Origin: Thioalkalivibrio sp. ALJ21
Lineage (GTDB): Bacteria; Pseudomonadota; Gammaproteobacteria; Ectothiorhodospirales; Ectothiorhodospiraceae
DNA length: 64,000 bases
Direction of reading: 5' to 3'
Assembly (NCBI RefSeq): GCF_000378605.1
Contig: NZ_KB905155.1
Span: 248,001-312,000 of the forward strand
Both the position numbers and the translations under genes were made by a program. The notes beneath the pieces are model-generated. The model was not told the DNA's origin. It did not search any database and was given only the letters and a program-made list of their open reading frames with translations. The number at the start of each line of letters is the position of its first letter. Positions within the stretch are counted from its first letter, which is position 1. Shown piece by piece: positions 1 to 11,752 of this stretch.

Positions 1-968
1 CCGAGTATGTCGGCTCCGAGCATTACGATGCCTTCTGTGGCTCCCGCCCACAGGCCGGTCCGGAGAAGGTTTCCGTGAGTCGCACCTGGAACCAGCAGAA
101 CGTCTCGGGTACCTCCGTAGGGCGCTCCGCAAGGGTCACCGGGGACGAGTACGGCGCATGCAAACCGGTGTCGGGTACGCCTTATATTGGCGCTGACCAG
201 TACGAGGCCTACTGCGAGCCGCGCGATATGCAGACGGCGCAGACCCGCGTGGCCGAACGCCACGCGACGCCGGGGCATCCGGTTTCCGGGAGTCAGCCGG
301 GTTACGACGAGCGCGTGACGGGCACCGAACGCGGTGCATGCCAGGACGTGTCCGGTGCGCCGTATGTCGGGGCGAACGAATTTGCCGCGACCTGTCCGAC
401 GGCCGTTGGCAGCCTGCACCCGCGGCTGCGCCCCGAAGGCCAGGCTGCTGTATCCGCGCCGGTGGCCGAGGTCCCGGCCCATGCGATGCCGAATGACGGC
501 TTCAGCGTTCAGAGTCCGGCCCGCGAGGCGTGGGCGCGCCGCGAACGTCGTGTGACGGGTACCGCCTACGGCGCTTCGGGTGGCATCACCGGCCCGATCA
601 ACAAGGCGACGGGCTTGGTGTCCGGGACCGAAGAGTTTCGTTATCAGCCGGATCGTCACCAGCCGGTACCGGCTCAGGCCGACGACGCGGCCAAGATGGG
701 CGCCGAGCGCGTGACCGTTAACGGTAGCAGCAACGGTGTGACGATTACGGGTGATGACTGGGGCCGTGGGAGCAGCGTGACCGGCACCGAAGGGTTCGCC
801 ACGCGTCGTAACGCGACGCAAAAGGGCAACCCGCGGGGTGAAGGGCGCAGTGCCTATGCCAATCGCGAGCTCGAGCGCAAGGAAGTGCCGATGAGCAAGA
901 TCACAGGTTCCTCCGGGAACAGTGGCAGCGGTTCGCTGGTGACCCTGTCCGGCGGTGCCCGCGGCTAA
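1..968 (+). CDS. csoS2: Carboxysome assembly scaffold CsoS2, C-terminal part (5' end outside window)
   Basis: The reading frame is open from base 3, so the gene starts upstream; about 321 C-terminal residues are visible. CsoS2 is the disordered scaffold that links Rubisco to the alpha-carboxysome shell. The visible part holds repeats of the [VI][TS]G type, such as VTGDEYGAC, VSGTPYIGADQYEAYC and VSGAPYVGANEFAATC, which belong to the middle and C-terminal shell-binding regions. It ends in a glycine/serine-rich tail (ITGSSGNSGSG, then VTLSGGARG) like the terminal peptide of known CsoS2. It is the first visible gene of the cso operon and lies 29 bp before csoSCA. The N-terminal Rubisco-binding repeats cannot be seen, so full length and any internal frameshift site are unknown. 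Confidence 0.97.
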   Translation, partial: EYVGSEHYDAFCGSRPQAGPEKVSVSRTWNQQNVSGTSVGRSARVTGDEYGACKPVSGTPYIGADQYEAYCEPRDMQTAQTRVAERHATPGHPVSGSQPGYDERVTGTERGACQDVSGAPYVGANEFAATCPTAVGSLHPRLRPEGQAAVSAPVAEVPAHAMPNDGFSVQSPAREAWARRERRVTGTAYGASGGITGPINKATGLVSGTEEFRYQPDRHQPVPAQADDAAKMGAERVTVNGSSNGVTITGDDWGRGSSVTGTEGFATRRNATQKGNPRGEGRSAYANRELERKEVPMSKITGSSGNSGSGSLVTLSGGARG

Positions 969-997: not shown

Positions 998-2566
998 ATG
1001 GTGCGCCGAGGCCGCCGCAAGACTTCGCCCTTTGGCACGCGTTACGCGACGCCACGGGGAAGTGCCGTCCGGTCGCCGGTAGCACAAGGTGCCAATTCGG
1101 TGGCTGCGCAACCGCTGGTTAGCGCGGTGCCGCCGAAGGCGCCGGAGCCGCTGGATGTGCCTTCTGTGTTGAAGCCCGGGCATCCCCTGGCGGATGTTGC
1201 CGACAACGAAAGGCTGTATGCGTTTGAAAGCGGCTTTCGCGATCGGTTCGCGAATCTGGTGCCGGTACTGAAAGAGGTCCATGCGCTGCAACACGAGCGG
1301 GACTTCGAGGAAAAGGCGCAACGGATTGTGGAGGATAACCTCGGCTATCGGTTGCCGGAACGCGTCCTGGAAGATGCGTGGATCAACGATCTGGACACGC
1401 GCGAACTGTACCTGCACGGGACGTTCGAGCTGTTCGATCAGCTGGTCAATGAATACTGGGCGGGTCGGGATGACCTGGTGGACGAGGCGGAACGCGCGAT
1501 TGCGTATTTCCTCGACTGCGATTTCCACGAAGTGGACATCTCGCCCTGTTCCGACGGGCGGCTGTTGAGCCTGCGGCGCTTCATCCTGCGCCTGCCGGAT
1601 CTGGCCGTTCGAGTGAAGAGTTATGCCGGGGCGCAGTTCGACATCGAAGAGGATGTCCGCCACTGGACGAAACGCGAGCTGTTGCGGTTCCGCGAAGGAC
1701 GGCCGACGACGGCGGATGTGCCGAGTCGCTACCTGAAGATCGCGGCGTATCACTACAGCAGTGCGGACCCGCACCACCAGGGGTGCGCGGCGCACGGCAA
1801 CAGCGAACGGGATGCGGCGGATGCCGCGCTGCGACAGCTGCGGGCGTTTCGTCAGGCGATCGAGAACACCTACTGCTGTGGGGCCTCGGTCGACACGCTG
1901 CTGATTGGTGTGGACACGGATACGGATGCAGTGAAGATCCATATCCCCGACGCCGATACGCGGATGAGTCTGTACCGCTTCGTGGATAGCGCGAAGGTGT
2001 ATCGGGAGACGCAGGACCTGGACGGCCGTGAGGCGGAATTGCGCGTGTATCAGGCGATCCAGGACGCGATCCACCAGCAGGGCTGGGGTCACGGCAACGG
2101 GGCGCCGCACGAGGGGATGCTTCGACTGATCTCCCGTCTGCTGCTGAACAATATTTCGCAGCTCGATTACGTGGCGCGCTACCACAACGGGCATTACGCC
2201 GATGTGGGCCACCGCGAGCGAGTGATCATCGTCGGCCAGGAAGTCGAGGAGATGCAGGTACGCAACTTTGCCTACTTCGCGCACCTGGAGACGATGGAAG
2301 AAGGCGCCCACGGGATGGATGTGGGGGTGAACAAGATCTTTCGGCAGCTGAATGTCGAGCGGGGCCTGCCGGTACCGGTGGTGATCCATTACCGCTACGA
2401 CCGCAAGGTGCCGGGGTCGCGCGAGCGGGTCGAGGCCCGCTGCCGGCGGATTCGCGACCAGATCATGGCGCGCTACCGCGAACTGGCCGAGAAGGGCCTG
2501 ATCGGGTGCCACATGGTGATTCGCGACAAGCGCAGCGGCAGCCAGTTGGAACCGCTCGCCGGGTGA
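998..2566 (+). CDS. csoSCA: Carboxysome shell carbonic anhydrase CsoSCA (CsoS3)
   Basis: A 522-residue epsilon/beta-type carbonic anhydrase that converts bicarbonate to CO2 inside the carboxysome. The zinc site can be read directly: Cys184 in SPCSDGR, with the Asp186/Arg188 dyad, then His252 in YHYSSADPHHQGC and Cys263 at the end of that motif. The spacing matches the Cys-His-Cys ligands known for Halothiobacillus CsoSCA. The first 50 or so residues are basic and low in complexity, as expected of the N-terminal peptide that recruits the enzyme to Rubisco. The ATG at 998 is preceded by AAGGAGG. Length and position after csoS2 are typical of cso operons. Confidence 0.97.
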   Translation: MVRRGRRKTSPFGTRYATPRGSAVRSPVAQGANSVAAQPLVSAVPPKAPEPLDVPSVLKPGHPLADVADNERLYAFESGFRDRFANLVPVLKEVHALQHERDFEEKAQRIVEDNLGYRLPERVLEDAWINDLDTRELYLHGTFELFDQLVNEYWAGRDDLVDEAERAIAYFLDCDFHEVDISPCSDGRLLSLRRFILRLPDLAVRVKSYAGAQFDIEEDVRHWTKRELLRFREGRPTTADVPSRYLKIAAYHYSSADPHHQGCAAHGNSERDAADAALRQLRAFRQAIENTYCCGASVDTLLIGVDTDTDAVKIHIPDADTRMSLYRFVDSAKVYRETQDLDGREAELRVYQAIQDAIHQQGWGHGNGAPHEGMLRLISRLLLNNISQLDYVARYHNGHYADVGHRERVIIVGQEVEEMQVRNFAYFAHLETMEEGAHGMDVGVNKIFRQLNVERGLPVPVVIHYRYDRKVPGSRERVEARCRRIRDQIMARYRELAEKGLIGCHMVIRDKRSGSQLEPLAG

Positions 2567-2582
2567 GCTAACGGGACACGGA

Positions 2583-2834
2583 ATGAAGATCTGCAAGGTA
2601 GAGAAGACGCTGGTTTCGACCAACCGGATCCGGGATCTGGGTCACCGTCCCTTGCTGGTGGTCCAGGAGAAGGCCGGCGGGCCGCGCACGGTCGCGGTGG
2701 ATGCGGTCGGTTGTGTTCCCGGGGATTGGGTGATCGTGGTCGGCTCGTCCGCGGCGCGCGAGGCGGCCGGCAGCAAGGAATACCCCAGTGACGCGACGAT
2801 CGTCGGGATCATCGATTACTGGGAGGAGCAGTAG
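2583..2834 (+). CDS. csoS4A: Carboxysome shell vertex protein CsoS4A
   Basis: An 83-residue bacterial microcompartment vertex (BMV, EutN/CcmL) protein. Family members form pentamers that cap the vertices of the icosahedral shell. It begins MKICKVEKTLVSTNRI, contains LLVVQEK and VAVDAVGCVPGDWV, and ends ATIVGIIDYWEEQ, all typical of the pentamer fold. It follows csoSCA by 16 bp and is separated from csoS4B by 4 bp, so the pair is probably translated together. Which paralogue is A and which B is assigned from operon order and length. Confidence 0.95.
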   Translation: MKICKVEKTLVSTNRIRDLGHRPLLVVQEKAGGPRTVAVDAVGCVPGDWVIVVGSSAAREAAGSKEYPSDATIVGIIDYWEEQ

Positions 2835-2838
2835 CTCC

Positions 2839-3171
2839 ATGGAAATTATGCAGGTGCAGGACGAACTGGTGGTGACCCGTCGTGTGGACGGTCTCCAGAC
2901 CATGTCGCTGCGCGTGCTGGTGGATCAAAAGGGTGCGCTCAGCGTCGCCGTGGATCCGGTTGGTGCACACCCGGGCAACTGGGTGTTCACGATCTCTGGA
3001 TCGGCCGCGCGCTACGCGCTCGATGACCCCAAGGTGACAACCGATCTGACGATCGGCGGCATCATCGACCACTGGGACGATGGTGGCAGGAAAGCGGAAG
3101 GGTCGACGAACAAGGCTGGACAAGACCAGACCGATGCACAGCGCTCTGCTAGTGCCCACAAGGCGGCTTGA
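2839..3171 (+). CDS. csoS4B: Carboxysome shell vertex protein CsoS4B
   Basis: A 110-residue BMV-family pentamer protein, paralogous to the preceding gene (VAVDPVGAHPGNWVFTISG and TIGGIIDHW). The start at 2839 (MEIMQVQDELV) is chosen because the family fold begins there; a longer frame opens upstream inside csoS4A, and GGAGG at the end of csoS4A serves as ribosome-binding site. After the conserved HW residues there is an extra tail of roughly 30 residues, rich in Lys, Gln, Ser and Ala, that csoS4A lacks. The tail is probably disordered and its role is unknown. Confidence 0.94.
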   Translation: MEIMQVQDELVVTRRVDGLQTMSLRVLVDQKGALSVAVDPVGAHPGNWVFTISGSAARYALDDPKVTTDLTIGGIIDHWDDGGRKAEGSTNKAGQDQTDAQRSASAHKAA

Positions 3172-3215
3172 GCGTCATTTTAATTGGAAAAACTGTAACT
3201 CCAGGAGAAAGAGAA

Positions 3216-3515
3216 ATGGCAACTGAACGTTTTGGTGTGGCGCTGGGCATGATCGAGACCCGTGGTCTGGTGCCGGCGATTGAAGCCGCTGATGCGATGA
3301 CCAAGGCCTCGGAAGTGCGCCTGATCGGTCGTCAGTTCGTCGGTGGTGGTTACGTGACCGTGCTGGTCCGTGGCGAGACCGGCGCCGTGAACGCTGCGGT
3401 GCGTGCCGGTGCGGATTCCTGCGAGCGTGTGGGTGACGGCCTGGTGGCTGCGCACATCATTGCCCGCGTGCATTCCGAAGTGGAAAGCATCCTGCCCGAG
3501 CAGGTTGAAAAGTAA
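3216..3515 (+). CDS. csoS1C: Carboxysome shell hexamer protein CsoS1 (first copy, CsoS1C position)
   Basis: A 99-residue single BMC-domain protein, a major shell facet protein that forms hexagonal tiles. It carries GMIETRGLVPAIEAADAM and the ETGAVNAAVRAGADSC segment around the pore. The start at 3216 (MATERFGVALG) is set by AGGAGA seven bases upstream and by alignment with the next two paralogues; an in-frame start at 3168 is rejected. It is the first of three tandem copies. The letter C follows the Halothiobacillus gene order and is an inference. Confidence 0.95.
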   Translation: MATERFGVALGMIETRGLVPAIEAADAMTKASEVRLIGRQFVGGGYVTVLVRGETGAVNAAVRAGADSCERVGDGLVAAHIIARVHSEVESILPEQVEK

Positions 3516-3546
3516 TTCATCAGTAACGCTTGATAGGAGTTAAGTA

Positions 3547-3840
3547 ATGGCTAGCGAAAACTTTGGTGTGGCCCTCGGCATGATCGAGACCCGTGGTCTG
3601 GTGCCGGCGATTGAAGCTGCCGATGCGATGACCAAGGCCTCGGAAGTGCGCCTGATCGGTCGTCAGTTCGTCGGTGGCGGTTACGTGACCGTTCTGGTGC
3701 GTGGCGAGACCGGCGCTGTGAACGCTGCGGTGCGTGCCGGTGCGGATTCCTGCGAGCGTGTGGGTGACGGCCTGGTGGCTGCGCACATCATTGCCCGTGT
3801 GCATTCCGAGGTGGAAAACATCCTCCCGGAAAAGCCGTAA
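3547..3840 (+). CDS. csoS1A: Carboxysome shell hexamer protein CsoS1 (second copy, CsoS1A position)
   Basis: A 97-residue BMC-domain shell protein, nearly identical to the first copy between GMIETRGL and AAHIIARVHSEVE. Differences are confined to the first residues (MASENFG) and the C-terminus (NILPEKP). An AGGAG ribosome-binding site lies just upstream of the ATG. It should co-assemble with the flanking copies into shell facets. Long stretches are also identical at the DNA level, which suggests recent duplication or gene conversion. Confidence 0.95.
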   Translation: MASENFGVALGMIETRGLVPAIEAADAMTKASEVRLIGRQFVGGGYVTVLVRGETGAVNAAVRAGADSCERVGDGLVAAHIIARVHSEVENILPEKP

Positions 3841-3846
3841 GTCCCT

Positions 3847-3864
3847 GCGGCGGATAAACGCCGC
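3847..3864 (+). other. Intercistronic stem-loop between the second and third csoS1 genes
   Basis: GCGGCG (3847-3852) pairs perfectly with CGCCGC (3859-3864) around a six-base GATAAA loop. It sits 7 bp after the second csoS1 stop codon and has no T-run, so it is not a classical terminator. Such hairpins can stabilise the upstream message against 3' decay and set shell-protein ratios; that role is inferred here. Confidence 0.5.
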
Positions 3865-3908
3865 CGCGGCCAAGCGGCCCGGCGGCCCGTTTGTAAAAGA
3901 GGTTAGCA

Positions 3909-4223
3909 ATGGCGAGCGAAATTTCTGGTGTGGCCCTGGGCATGATCGAGACCCGTGGTCTGGTGCCGGCAATTGAAGCGGCGGATGCGATGACCAAGGC
4001 CTCGGAAGTGCGCCTGATCGGTCGTCAGTTCGTCGGTGGTGGTTACGTGACCGTGCTGGTCCGTGGCGAGACCGGTGCCGTGAATGCGGCGGTGCGTGCC
4101 GGTGCGGATTCCTGCGAGCGTGTGGGTGACGGCCTGGTGGCTGCGCACATCATTGCCCGCGTCCACTCCGAAGTGGAAAGCATCCTGCCGAAGGCCCCGA
4201 CCGCCGACGGCTCGGCCAGTTGA
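3909..4223 (+). CDS. csoS1B: Carboxysome shell hexamer protein CsoS1 (third copy, CsoS1B-like)
   Basis: A 104-residue BMC-domain shell protein, the third tandem paralogue (MASEISGVALGMIETRG). Its C-terminus is longer than in the other two (KAPTADGSAS after VESIL), which is the feature that separates CsoS1B from CsoS1A and CsoS1C in known operons. It is set apart from the second copy by a 68-bp spacer containing a GC-rich hairpin, so its expression may be tuned separately. The ferritin-like gene starts 10 bp downstream. Confidence 0.95.
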   Translation: MASEISGVALGMIETRGLVPAIEAADAMTKASEVRLIGRQFVGGGYVTVLVRGETGAVNAAVRAGADSCERVGDGLVAAHIIARVHSEVESILPKAPTADGSAS

Positions 4224-9339: not shown

Positions 9340-10362
9340 ATGGCCCAGTCCCCTACGCCAAAGGAGTCCGGTCTCCCGCAGGTGATGCTCAAGTCGGAGC
9401 TGCCGGCGCACCTGATCCGGCATGCCACGCTGCGTCAGCTGCAGGTGTTCGAGGCGATCGTGCGCCTGGGGAGCTTTACCCGCGCGGCCGAAGAGCTGCA
9501 TCTGACCCAGCCGACCGTCTCGATCCAGATCAAGAAGCTCTCCACGGCACTGGGGCTCCCGCTGTTCGAATACGTGGGGCGCAAGGCCTTCCCGACCGAG
9601 GTCGGTCTGCTGCTGTACGACACCTGCCGCGAGATGCTCGGCGCGCTGACCAACCTCGAGATGAAACTGGCCGAGATGCACGGCCTCAAGCGCGGGCGTC
9701 TGCGTCTCGCGGTGATCACCACGGCGCAGTACTTCGCGCCCAGCATCCTCGGTCAGTTCGCCCGGCGGTATCCCGATATCGAGCTGTCGCTGGAGGTCAG
9801 CAACTTTGACCGGGTGCTGGAGCGGCTGTCGAACAACGACGACGACCTCTACATCATCGGGCATGTCCCCGAGCGGTTGACTGATGTCGCGGTGCACCCG
9901 TTCGCGCCCAATCCGCTGGTGGTGATGGCCAGCCGTGACCACCCGCTGGTCGGCCGGCGCAATATCCCGCTGAAGGAGCTGGAGCAGGAGACGTTCCTGA
10001 TGCGCGAACCCGGCTCGGGTATCCGCGAGGCGACGCTCAAGCTGTTCCAGGAGCACGGGATCAGCCCGCCCGTGCGCATGGAGCTGGGCAGTAACGAGGC
10101 GATCAAGCAGGCGGTGATCGGCGGTCTGGGGATTGCCGTGCTGTCGCTGCACACCCTCAGTGCCGAGGGGGCCGAGGGTCCGGTGGCGCTACTGGATGTG
10201 GAACACTTCCCGATCCATCGCCAGTGGCACATCGTCTACCCGAAAAAGAAGGTCCTGTCCGTCGTCGCCCAGACCTTTCTCGACTTCGCCATCCAGGACG
10301 AGGCCCGGGTGCGCGGGCAGGTCGAGGACCTGCTGGCCGCGTTCAAGGCCCAGGCCGGCTGA
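9340..10362 (+). CDS. cbbR: LysR-family regulator, CbbR type
   Basis: A 340-residue LysR-type transcription factor. The winged helix-turn-helix lies near residues 28-90 (TLRQLQVFEAIV, AEELHLTQPTVSIQIKKL), followed by a two-lobed effector domain (LAVITTAQYFAP, VSNFDRVLERL). The sequence pattern is that of CbbR, which activates Calvin-cycle operons in response to metabolites. It is encoded 3' of cbbO in the same direction rather than divergently from the operon, so it may be co-transcribed with cbbQO. Targets are inferred. Confidence 0.88.
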   Translation: MAQSPTPKESGLPQVMLKSELPAHLIRHATLRQLQVFEAIVRLGSFTRAAEELHLTQPTVSIQIKKLSTALGLPLFEYVGRKAFPTEVGLLLYDTCREMLGALTNLEMKLAEMHGLKRGRLRLAVITTAQYFAPSILGQFARRYPDIELSLEVSNFDRVLERLSNNDDDLYIIGHVPERLTDVAVHPFAPNPLVVMASRDHPLVGRRNIPLKELEQETFLMREPGSGIREATLKLFQEHGISPPVRMELGSNEAIKQAVIGGLGIAVLSLHTLSAEGAEGPVALLDVEHFPIHRQWHIVYPKKKVLSVVAQTFLDFAIQDEARVRGQVEDLLAAFKAQAG

Positions 10363-10576: not shown

Positions 10577-10625
10577 AAATTCACGCTTTACCCGGCCGCC
10601 ATCGGCCCGAGTGGGAGAACGCGCA

Positions 10626-11192
10626 GTGAGCACCGTGACCCGTCCGCGTATCAGCGGTACCCAGTTCATCAACGCCGACGAGGCCCCGCGTTCGCGCCTG
10701 AGCCTGAGCGCCTCGCACCGCGACCAGCATCACCCGGTGACCGGGACGGGCAGTGACATGCTCGCCGCCGCGATCGATACCCCGCCGAACGAGAGCTGTG
10801 TGGTCTGCGCACCCGCCACGCGCCGTCTGGCCGAGGAACTGTTCGACGCCTGGAACGACGCCCTGCAGACGGGTGACGCCCGCCGCGTGACCGCGTTGTA
10901 CGCCGACGACGCGGTGCTGCTGCCGACCGTGTCCAATGTCCCGCGCACCAACCATGCCGAGATCCAGGACTACTTTGAGCATTTCCTCGAGAAGAAGCCC
11001 TTCGGCACGATCAATACGCGCAACGTGAAGCTCGGCTGCAACAAGCTGACCGACGCCGGCACCTATACCTTCCGCGTGACCGACGGCAACGAGACGCAGG
11101 AAGTCCCCGCGCGCTACACCTTCGTCTACGAGAACCGCGACGGGGAATGGAAAATCGTGCACCACCACTCCTCGATGATGCCCACTGCGTGA
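10626..11192 (+). CDS. SnoaL-like (SgcJ/CaMKII-association type) protein with CsoS2-like N-terminal repeats
   Basis: A 188-residue protein in two parts. Residues about 65-186 look like a SnoaL/CaMKII-association (cystatin-like cone) domain: ELFDAWNDALQTGD, VTALYADDAVLLPT and a final WKIVHHHSS. Such domains form dimers or oligomers and bind small ligands or act as assembly domains. Residues 1-61 are different: ISGTQFINADE (9-19) lines up with VSGTPYIGADQ of the CsoS2 encoded at 168-200, HPVTGTG (36-42) resembles CsoS2 HPVSGSQ, and a Cys pair follows (58, 61). This suggests shell or carboxysome targeting. The GTG at 10626 is chosen because GGGAG lies eight bases upstream; GTG 10611 is possible. 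Enzymatic function is not known. Confidence 0.75.
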   Translation: MSTVTRPRISGTQFINADEAPRSRLSLSASHRDQHHPVTGTGSDMLAAAIDTPPNESCVVCAPATRRLAEELFDAWNDALQTGDARRVTALYADDAVLLPTVSNVPRTNHAEIQDYFEHFLEKKPFGTINTRNVKLGCNKLTDAGTYTFRVTDGNETQEVPARYTFVYENRDGEWKIVHHHSSMMPTA

Positions 11193-11269
11193 CCCGGTAA
11201 TCGGTGAACGTTTGTTCCCGGCAGGGCGAGTCGCGATACTGGGCGCTCGCTACCATCGGGAGAAAGGGA

Positions 11270-11752
11270 ATGTCCAAACGCTCATTCGTGATCCTGGCCG
11301 CTGCTGGCCTGGCACTGGCCGGTGCCGGTAGCGCGCAGGCCTCCAACAGCGCCGAGCTGGAACTGGACGGCGAGACCTACACGCTGGATGTTCAGGTCTG
11401 TGACTTCTCCGGCGAGGCAGACGAGGGCGATCTTCAGACCCTGGTCGGGGATGCCGAGACCGATGATGGCCCGATGCGTGTGTTTGTCTCGCGCAATGAG
11501 GTCAGCGGCATGCTGATGCATACGGTCAGCGTTCAGGTCGGGGATGTGATGTCCCCCGAGGGCGAGGTGCTGGAGGCCAACCGCAGCCGTTCCGGCGATC
11601 AGTGGTTCTCGGCTGCAGACGGCCCCTCCGAACCCCTGATCCGGATCGACGGTGCGGAACTGGTCGCCGAGGGGCTGTTTTCCGATACCGGAATGACGCG
11701 GGATCCGGTCGAGGGGCGCCTGACCGCGACCTGCAACGACCCGGGTGTCTGA
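11270..11752 (+). CDS. Putative exported protein of unknown function
   Basis: A 160-residue protein with a clear signal peptide ([20 protein letters not shown], cleavage probably after SAQA). The mature part is acidic, predicted beta-rich, and contains two Cys (VQVCDFSGE and the terminal TATCNDPGV) that could form a disulfide. It resembles no family I can name. The start at 11270 follows GGGAGAAAGGGA; an upstream in-frame start at 11204 would bury the signal peptide. Its end overlaps the GTG start of the next gene, so the two may be co-translated. Confidence 0.7.

Follow-up and report, generated by a model that had tools for sequence, protein, structure and literature searches.

Wieschollek et al. 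2024 (AEM 90:e0107524) are said to have found an iota-class carbonic anhydrase (iota-CA) in carboxysome enrichments and to have described a mutant needing high CO2. According to one paper, which credits Wieschollek 2024, the carboxysomes of Thiomicrospira contain an iota-CA instead of CsoSCA (PMC12628692); its presence in purified Thiomicrospira carboxysomes is given at second hand (PMC12628692, PMC12918739), and iota-CA is likewise placed in the carboxysomes of sulfur oxidizers (PMC12918739, PMC13159521). All members of Thiomicrospira are reported to be without csoSCA (PMC9164163). According to a 2026 review, the carbonic anhydrases of carboxysomes are of the beta and gamma types only (PMC13370225), and the available sections of two Thioalkalivibrio surveys assign the role of carbonic anhydrase in the carboxysome cluster to csoS3 (CsoSCA), naming no other there (PMC5328954, PMC5744179). 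Concerning the entry of cargo, both recruitment by way of Rubisco and non-specific recruitment by way of the shell are in print for CsoSCA (PMC12646314, PMC12918739). The [IV]TG triplet of CsoS2 contacts His79 of CsoS1A (PMC10484944), and mutations of the CsoS2 VTG or Tyr perturb shell binding and growth in air (PMC11365436). Moreover, an encapsulation peptide derived from the C-terminus of CsoS2 directs cargo into the shell as an engineered fusion (PMC10938918, PMC13370225).

The DNA analyzed here, referred to as the window, is a stretch of 64,000 nucleotides from Thioalkalivibrio sp. ALJ21. It contains a carboxysome locus followed by a gene for an iota-CA with a CsoS2-type N-terminal tag; the tag would be a natural cargo's own, N-terminal version of the engineered encapsulation peptide. 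The features of the locus are as follows.

1..968, plus strand: 3' part of csoS2, whose start lies upstream of the window (PF12288 match, 2.1e-41).
998..2566, plus strand: csoSCA, encoding the usual carbonic anhydrase of carboxysomes (complete set of three CsoSCA Pfam domains; residues 60-521 align to solved CsoSCA).
2583..4223, plus strand: shell genes csoS4A, csoS4B and three csoS1 (PF03319 twice, PF00936 three times).
9340..10362, plus strand: cbbR, LysR-type regulator, the upstream neighbor of the iota-CA gene (domain match).
10626..11192, plus strand: gene of the tagged iota-class carbonic anhydrase, 188 residues, GTG start.

The order of genes before the iota-CA gene is csoS2, csoSCA, csoS4A/B, three csoS1, a bacterioferritin-like gene, a pterin dehydratase-like gene (called acRAF in carboxysome loci), parA, cbbQ, a putative cbbO (a VWA-domain gene) and cbbR. 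The sequence-only reading had placed the gene in the carbon-fixation cluster just after cbbR, and this is indeed its position. The GGGAGAA at 10613-10619 is its likely ribosome site; a consensus scan, uninformative for this purpose, gave no promoter or terminator between cbbR and the iota-CA gene. The whole csoS2 frame, taken from the genome (G000), encodes 1005 residues with 28 [VI][TS]G triplets. Downstream, at 11204-11752 of the plus strand, lies an open reading frame with a signal-peptide-like start and no Pfam or NCBIfam match, and frames resembling its product flank the iota-CA gene at L029, L030 and L038, three further Thioalkalivibrio loci. The closest named relatives, among the best 80 of 207, are from Thioalkalivibrio.

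The closest described system is the carboxysomal iota-CA of Thiomicrospira, an enzyme of the same class: three loci recorded for that genus (L064, L068, L070) share with the window the domain, the kind of tag and the cso locus after cbbR. The two differ in that CsoSCA is absent or degenerate in Thiomicrospira (PMC9164163), whereas in the window it appears intact within the same locus. The protein had initially been proposed as a new carboxysome component; as a class of enzyme it is not, the iota-CA having already been published for Thiomicrospira carboxysomes (PMC12628692, PMC13159521, PMC12918739). What seems new, as far as the available literature goes, is that the tag probably serves for encapsulation, that it is found almost strictly together with CsoS2 and irrespective of gene linkage, and that the enzyme commonly coexists with CsoSCA. 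No account of an N-terminal motif on a carboxysomal iota-CA was found in the parts of the literature available, a search in which papers printing only the Greek letter may be missed.

The protein consists of a disordered N-terminal segment and an enzyme domain, with the following features. Conservation counts refer to an alignment of 49 rows, including 36 tagged ones (the window, L028 and 34 of the 45 tagged loci described below).

10626..10772, plus strand: disordered N-terminal tag, residues 1-49 (pLDDT below 50 in 1-11, 13-19 and 24-49).
10650..10670, plus strand: first CsoS2-type motif, ISGTQFI, residues 9-15 (motif class in 45/45 tagged loci and 0/35 relatives).
10701..10721, plus strand: third conserved element of the tag, S26-x5-R32 (S26 in 36/36, R32 in 34/36 rows).
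10737..10745, plus strand: second triplet, VTG, residues 38-40 (N-terminus with two or more [VI][TS]G triplets in 43/45 loci).
10806-10808 and 11037-11039, plus strand: Cys61 and Cys138 (perfect co-occurrence).
10821..11183, plus strand: iota-CA (CaMKII-AD/NTF2-like) domain, residues 66-186 (high pLDDT; Foldseek best match 3h51).
10926..10928, plus strand: Thr101, proposed catalytic Thr (invariant in 49/49 rows).
10971..10973, plus strand: Tyr116, proposed catalytic Tyr (invariant in 49/49 rows).
11163..11174, plus strand: HHSS signature, His180-His181-Ser182-Ser183 (invariant in 49/49 rows; aligned by HMMER to the HHSS of 7c5x).

The domain had been described as an otherwise unremarkable cystatin-fold domain, a view that has to be abandoned, as it is by sequence and fold an iota-class carbonic anhydrase, presumably an active one. 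The protein matches CaMKII_AD PF08332 (1.4e-21) and the SgcJ/EcaC family TIGR02246 (2.5e-18). A profile built from ten orthologues retrieves PDB 3h51 with an E-value of 2.5e-47 and the solved iota-CA 7c5x with 4.2e-07, in the latter case with no single stretch passing alone; using the 49-row profile, 7c5x is reached at 1.7e-12 over three stretches. Neither profile retrieved all2909. The AlphaFold2 model contains a confident domain and no secondary structure before residue 66, and its best Foldseek match is 3h51 (E 1.1e-16, 53% identity); 7c5x is absent from the 50 matches listed of 1332. Among the residues invariant in the alignment are T101, Y116, H181 and S183, where the His and Ser are aligned to 7c5x, while for Thr and Tyr the match is one of position alone. 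Judged by position without superposition, Thr101 would correspond to Thr106 and Tyr116 to Tyr124 of all2909, an enzyme in which Thr106, Tyr124, His197 and Ser199 are needed, and His-His-Ser-Ser is the motif common to both iota-CA branches (PMC8132391). From its likeness to 3h51 we infer that the protein belongs to the COG4875 branch. In the same source 3H51 is shown as a dimer and termed an apparent iota-CA of unconfirmed activity, the metal use of the branch seemingly containing it is disputed, and two COG4337 iota-CAs displayed very low bicarbonate dehydration in vitro (PMC8132391). The exported iota-CAs of Burkholderia territorii and Xanthomonas (3H51) share the domain, the HHSS motif and the fold with the protein of the window. 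They differ from it at the N-terminus: 35 untagged relatives carry an export-type segment where the window's protein has the tag, and such a segment is also stated for prokaryotic COG4875 and COG4337 proteins (PMC8132391).

Two cysteines following the motif had been taken as a further feature of CsoS2 repeats, an interpretation that does not hold, since Cys58 is present in only 14 of the 49 rows and Cys61 goes together with Cys138 of the enzyme domain. In the 80 loci, searched with loose windows, 48 have both Cys61 and Cys138, 32 have neither and none is mixed; by aligned column the numbers are 41, 8 and 0 over the 49 rows. The pair is also present in 3 of the 35 untagged relatives. This pattern suggests a Cys61-Cys138 disulfide common to all tagged and a few exported iota-CAs.

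Turning to the tag, residues 9-19 (ISGTQFINADE) were said to align without gaps to VSGTPYIGADQ of the CsoS2 encoded at 168-200, which was confirmed exactly, as was the resemblance of HPVTGTG (residues 36-42) to HPVSGSQ of the same CsoS2. The triplets are those of the middle and C-terminal repeats of CsoS2, and the first is followed by an aromatic residue at +5 as in VTGTxY. We scored this likeness with a matrix built from 114 aromatic-repeat windows of 20 CsoS2 proteins. The window's N-terminus, scored on a 99% identical copy (L029), reaches 14.1 bits; of 1060 N-termini of other open reading frames from the relatives' loci, a set that includes non-gene frames, only three lie above this value, all of them CsoS2 fragments, and 0 of 2000 shuffles attain it. 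With a matrix from all 423 CsoS2 windows the signal is weaker (6/1060 frames, 6/2000 shuffles). The motif of the Piscirickettsiaceae, ITGTxGI or similar, scores low: L064 obtains -3.5 bits, with 31 of the 1060 background N-termini at or above this value, and by eye the motif is closer to the VTGTxG type near the C-terminus of CsoS2. A degenerate DNA pattern of the motif occurs at 12 places in the whole genome: six in CsoS2, one in the iota-CA gene and five others. Of these five, three fall into frames 32, 38 and 97 residues long, a fourth comes late in a frame of 150 residues and the fifth is inside a frame of 458 residues, which we take to be SecY; in two of the five a Cys replaces the Thr/Ser. 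Thus no further plausible tagged protein was recovered from the genome with this pattern, which demands Thr followed by Phe/Tyr and passes over the glycine type.

Within the 36 tagged rows the motif stands out from a variable N-terminus. G11 is identical in 36/36, T12 and I15 in 34/36 and I9 in 33/36 rows, and Gly11, Ser26 and Asp51 are invariant. The mean identity of the eight motif columns, which were named after the motif had been seen, is 0.87 as against 0.46 for residues 1-60; when eight columns were drawn at random 20000 times, no draw attained 0.87. The second triplet is found elsewhere in three of the 43 loci that have at least two (L063, L067, L071), and L056 and L057 have a single one. 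Ser26 and Arg32 have no recognized counterpart in CsoS2 and possibly mark a further contact. Compared with CsoS2, the tag holds two triplets and not many, spaced 29 residues apart instead of 8, and it lacks paired cysteines of the CsoS2 kind. The Pfam search gave no PF12288 match in the protein, which, without this domain and without triplet repeats at 8 residues, would not be counted as a member of the CsoS2 family. With its [VI][TS]G triplets lying in a disordered stretch, it does qualify as carrying a CsoS2-type tag, one that presumably binds the shell.

We then looked at the distribution of the tag. A pattern-based scan of one genome per species (84,980 species) yielded 207 relatives, of which the best 80 were kept. 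The tag motif [VI][TS]G[TS]xx[FIYLV] precedes the domain in 45/45 of the loci L029-L073 and in 0/35 of L074-L108; conversely, a strongly hydrophobic export-type segment is present in 0/45 and 35/35, respectively, and one of the 35 untagged relatives has a bare VTG. The tagged loci are from Thioalkalivibrio, Guyparkeria, Halothiobacillus, Methylonatrum, Thiomicrospira, Thiomicrorhabdus, Hydrogenovibrio and other MAGs, the untagged ones from Pseudomonas, Xanthomonas, actinobacteria, a cyanobacterium and Polaromonas. CsoS2 was searched with the same query in both sets, the tagged one serving as positive control, and is present in 42 of the 44 genomes with the tag and in none of the 34 without it (L057 and L083 being left out of the genome counts as they share their genomes with L056 and L078). 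The two tagged genomes without detected CsoS2, G162 and G173, are both MAGs; a BMC-domain gene was found in G173 (1.1 Mb) and none in G162. Since the clean split between L073 and L074 partly reflects the ranking by whole-protein likeness, a class draw of 369 evenly sampled genomes was added. It contains 18 carriers (E 1e-30 or better), 10 tagged and 8 untagged, with CsoS2 in 9/10 and 0/8 of them, respectively (Fisher p 4e-4). Among 144 relatives, a set overlapping in part with the class draw, a tagged copy is found in 19/57 genomes with CsoS2 and in 1/87 without; the tagged genome without CsoS2 is the same in both draws, namely G104, whose MAG-like assembly is 84% complete. A phylum draw of 398 genomes, covering the tag only and without CsoS2 scoring, gave 22 carriers besides the window, of which 0/20 readable ones are tagged and two (L176, L177) are unreadable. 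Most genomes with CsoS2 have no tagged copy (38/57 of the relatives, 63 of the 72 CsoS2-containing genomes among the 369 of the class draw), so that the tagged iota-CA is an accessory component.

In the 44 and 34 genomes and in the class draw these figures bear out the suggested check that the tag occurs only together with CsoS2, and support the idea that the protein is linked to the carboxysome and bears a CsoS2-type tag at its N-terminus. In the 44 and 34 genomes compared, the tagged protein occurs only with carboxysomes, the exceptions being G162 and G173. Of the outcomes named as speaking against the idea, two were seen to a small extent: these two MAGs have tagged loci without detected CsoS2, and the paralogue L027 lacks the tag and has an export-type start.

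The association with CsoS2 extends beyond the neighborhood of the gene. With the proteins of the window as tblastn queries, genes for shell proteins or CsoSCA were found near 22 of the 45 tagged loci, and a CbbR match near 23 of the 45, in the flanking DNA examined. Eleven loci are cut by contig ends. The remaining 12 have about 10 kb on both sides without a shell gene, yet keep the tag, and in 12/12 of these genomes CsoS2 is encoded elsewhere. That the tag simply comes along with membership of the operon can thus be dismissed; it tracks the presence of the carboxysome and not the neighborhood.

CsoSCA matched over the cut-off in 38 of the 44 tagged genomes. Those without a match are G178, G182 and G184 (Thiomicrospira L064, L068 and L070), G187, G162 and G173. 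G187 (contig C34; L073, L126), a MAG of the Gammaproteobacteria that has CsoS2 as well as a tagged iota-CA, may reflect another loss of CsoSCA, one outside Thiomicrospira, or a gap in the assembly. On the other hand, two genomes recorded as Thiomicrospira (L061 and L069, from G175 and G183), under titles that may be outdated, do have CsoSCA, and the DNA examined around their iota-CA gave no shell gene; the presence of CsoSCA speaks against the simple rule that Thiomicrospira lost CsoSCA.

A tree of the domain only (66 rows, midpoint root) was calculated from 117 columns, which are few; of the 35 untagged loci it includes 14, the 21 others being mainly additional Pseudomonas and Xanthomonas, and it omits L025 and L026. 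The tagged proteins form one group with a support of 99/97 and one untagged member inside, L027, and a tree holding all tagged rows together is not rejected (AU p 0.34). L027 (1414-1890, on contig C61 of G020) is a tandem iota-CA paralogue located about 70 bp after a tagged gene. Given its export-type start amid tagged proteins, the tag and the signal peptide look like exchangeable modules; the root being a midpoint and the columns few, a gain of the tag with loss of the signal is a presumed direction of the first change. Duplicated copies occur in two further genomes: L021 and L028 (G099) are two tagged copies about 1.4 kb apart, the second with its second triplet lost and on a long branch, and Thiomicrorhabdus marina has two tagged copies (L056, L057).

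Taken together, we propose, at a probability of roughly 0.72, that a disordered tag mimicking CsoS2 docks the iota-CA on the inner face of the alpha-carboxysome shell. The enzyme, probably dimeric, would work inside the alpha-carboxysome. Its disordered tag of about 50 residues, which has two [VI][TS]G motifs and, behind the first, an aromatic residue (glycine in other lineages) and a conserved Ile/Leu, would dock at the site of CsoS1 used by CsoS2, around His79, so that the enzyme would be captured during shell assembly. Docking at the CsoS2 sites is proposed because of the contact between the CsoS2 triplet and His79 and because the equivalent His is kept in the CsoS1 proteins of the window, whose numbering fits the published CsoS1A segment. 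As 3H51 is a dimer (PMC8132391), two tails per enzyme are likely, which would amount to four motifs per enzyme, and the spacing of 29 residues would make these separate weak sites on each tail, two in number, rather than one repeat of the CsoS2 type. Once inside, the iota-CA would probably make CO2 from bicarbonate for Rubisco, beside CsoSCA or, in Thiomicrospira, in its place. Several points call for caution. The carboxysome needs bicarbonate dehydration, which is reported to be low in COG4337-type iota-CAs, and metal use is disputed for the branch (PMC8132391). The triplet spacing, 29 residues as against 8 in CsoS2, and the low-scoring motif of the Piscirickettsiaceae count against the proposal, as do the many CsoS2 genomes lacking a tagged copy, the two tagged MAGs without detected CsoS2, and the absence of 7c5x from the 50 listed Foldseek matches and of all2909 from the profile matches.

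Alternatively, the iota-CA could be carboxysomal while its tag binds Rubisco or CsoS2 itself, or co-condenses with CsoS2, instead of binding the shell. CsoSCA indeed uses a flexible N-terminal peptide for Rubisco (PMC12646314), and the conserved S26-x5-R32 is without a recognized counterpart in CsoS2. Nevertheless, the Rubisco-binding [RK]X5[HKR]R of CsoS2 (PMC9164163) was sought in the tag and found in 0/36 rows (its one-longer form in 9/36), and the conserved positions of the tag are mostly the shell-binding triplets, so that we regard such other contacts as unlikely. Still less probable is a carboxysomal protein that is not an active carbonic anhydrase, its NTF2-like domain having another small-molecule or scaffold role: CaMKII-AD and ketosteroid isomerase domains do have the same fold and the activity of 3h51 was unconfirmed in PMC8132391, but HHSS, Thr101 and Tyr116 are invariant in 49/49 rows and the Thiomicrospira genomes G178, G182 and G184 have no CsoSCA match over the cut-off. 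Finally, the protein might be an iota-CA of the cytosol or elsewhere that resembles CsoS2 at its N-terminus by chance or through shared composition. This would fit the shortness of the motif, the 6/1060 and 6/2000 obtained with the all-window matrix and the weak match in Piscirickettsiaceae, but is very improbable in view of the distribution of the motif (45/45 vs. 0/35) and of CsoS2 (42/44 vs. 0/34 genomes), the conservation of the motif within an otherwise variable N-terminus, and the argument that a free cytosolic carbonic anhydrase would short-circuit the bicarbonate pool (PMC10880623).

Under the preferred reading, docking on the shell through a tag mimicking CsoS2, an evolutionary scenario can be drawn that we consider slightly more probable than not. 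A formerly exported iota-CA would have swapped its signal peptide, once, for a CsoS2-mimicking tail, a natural portable encapsulation tag. The carboxysomes of many sulfur oxidizers would then hold two unrelated carbonic anhydrases by different contacts, CsoSCA through Rubisco and shell and the iota-CA through the CsoS2 site, and Thiomicrospira would thereby have been able to lose CsoSCA. The tag of the iota-CA bears on how the alpha-carboxysome chooses its non-Rubisco cargo. If the proposal is true, the tag would be a natural encapsulation peptide, short enough for engineering use, and many carboxysomes would contain two carbonic anhydrases, one of them perhaps metal-free. This would matter for growth in alkaline waters, which PMC12918739 brings up as an idea, and would show how CsoSCA could be lost.
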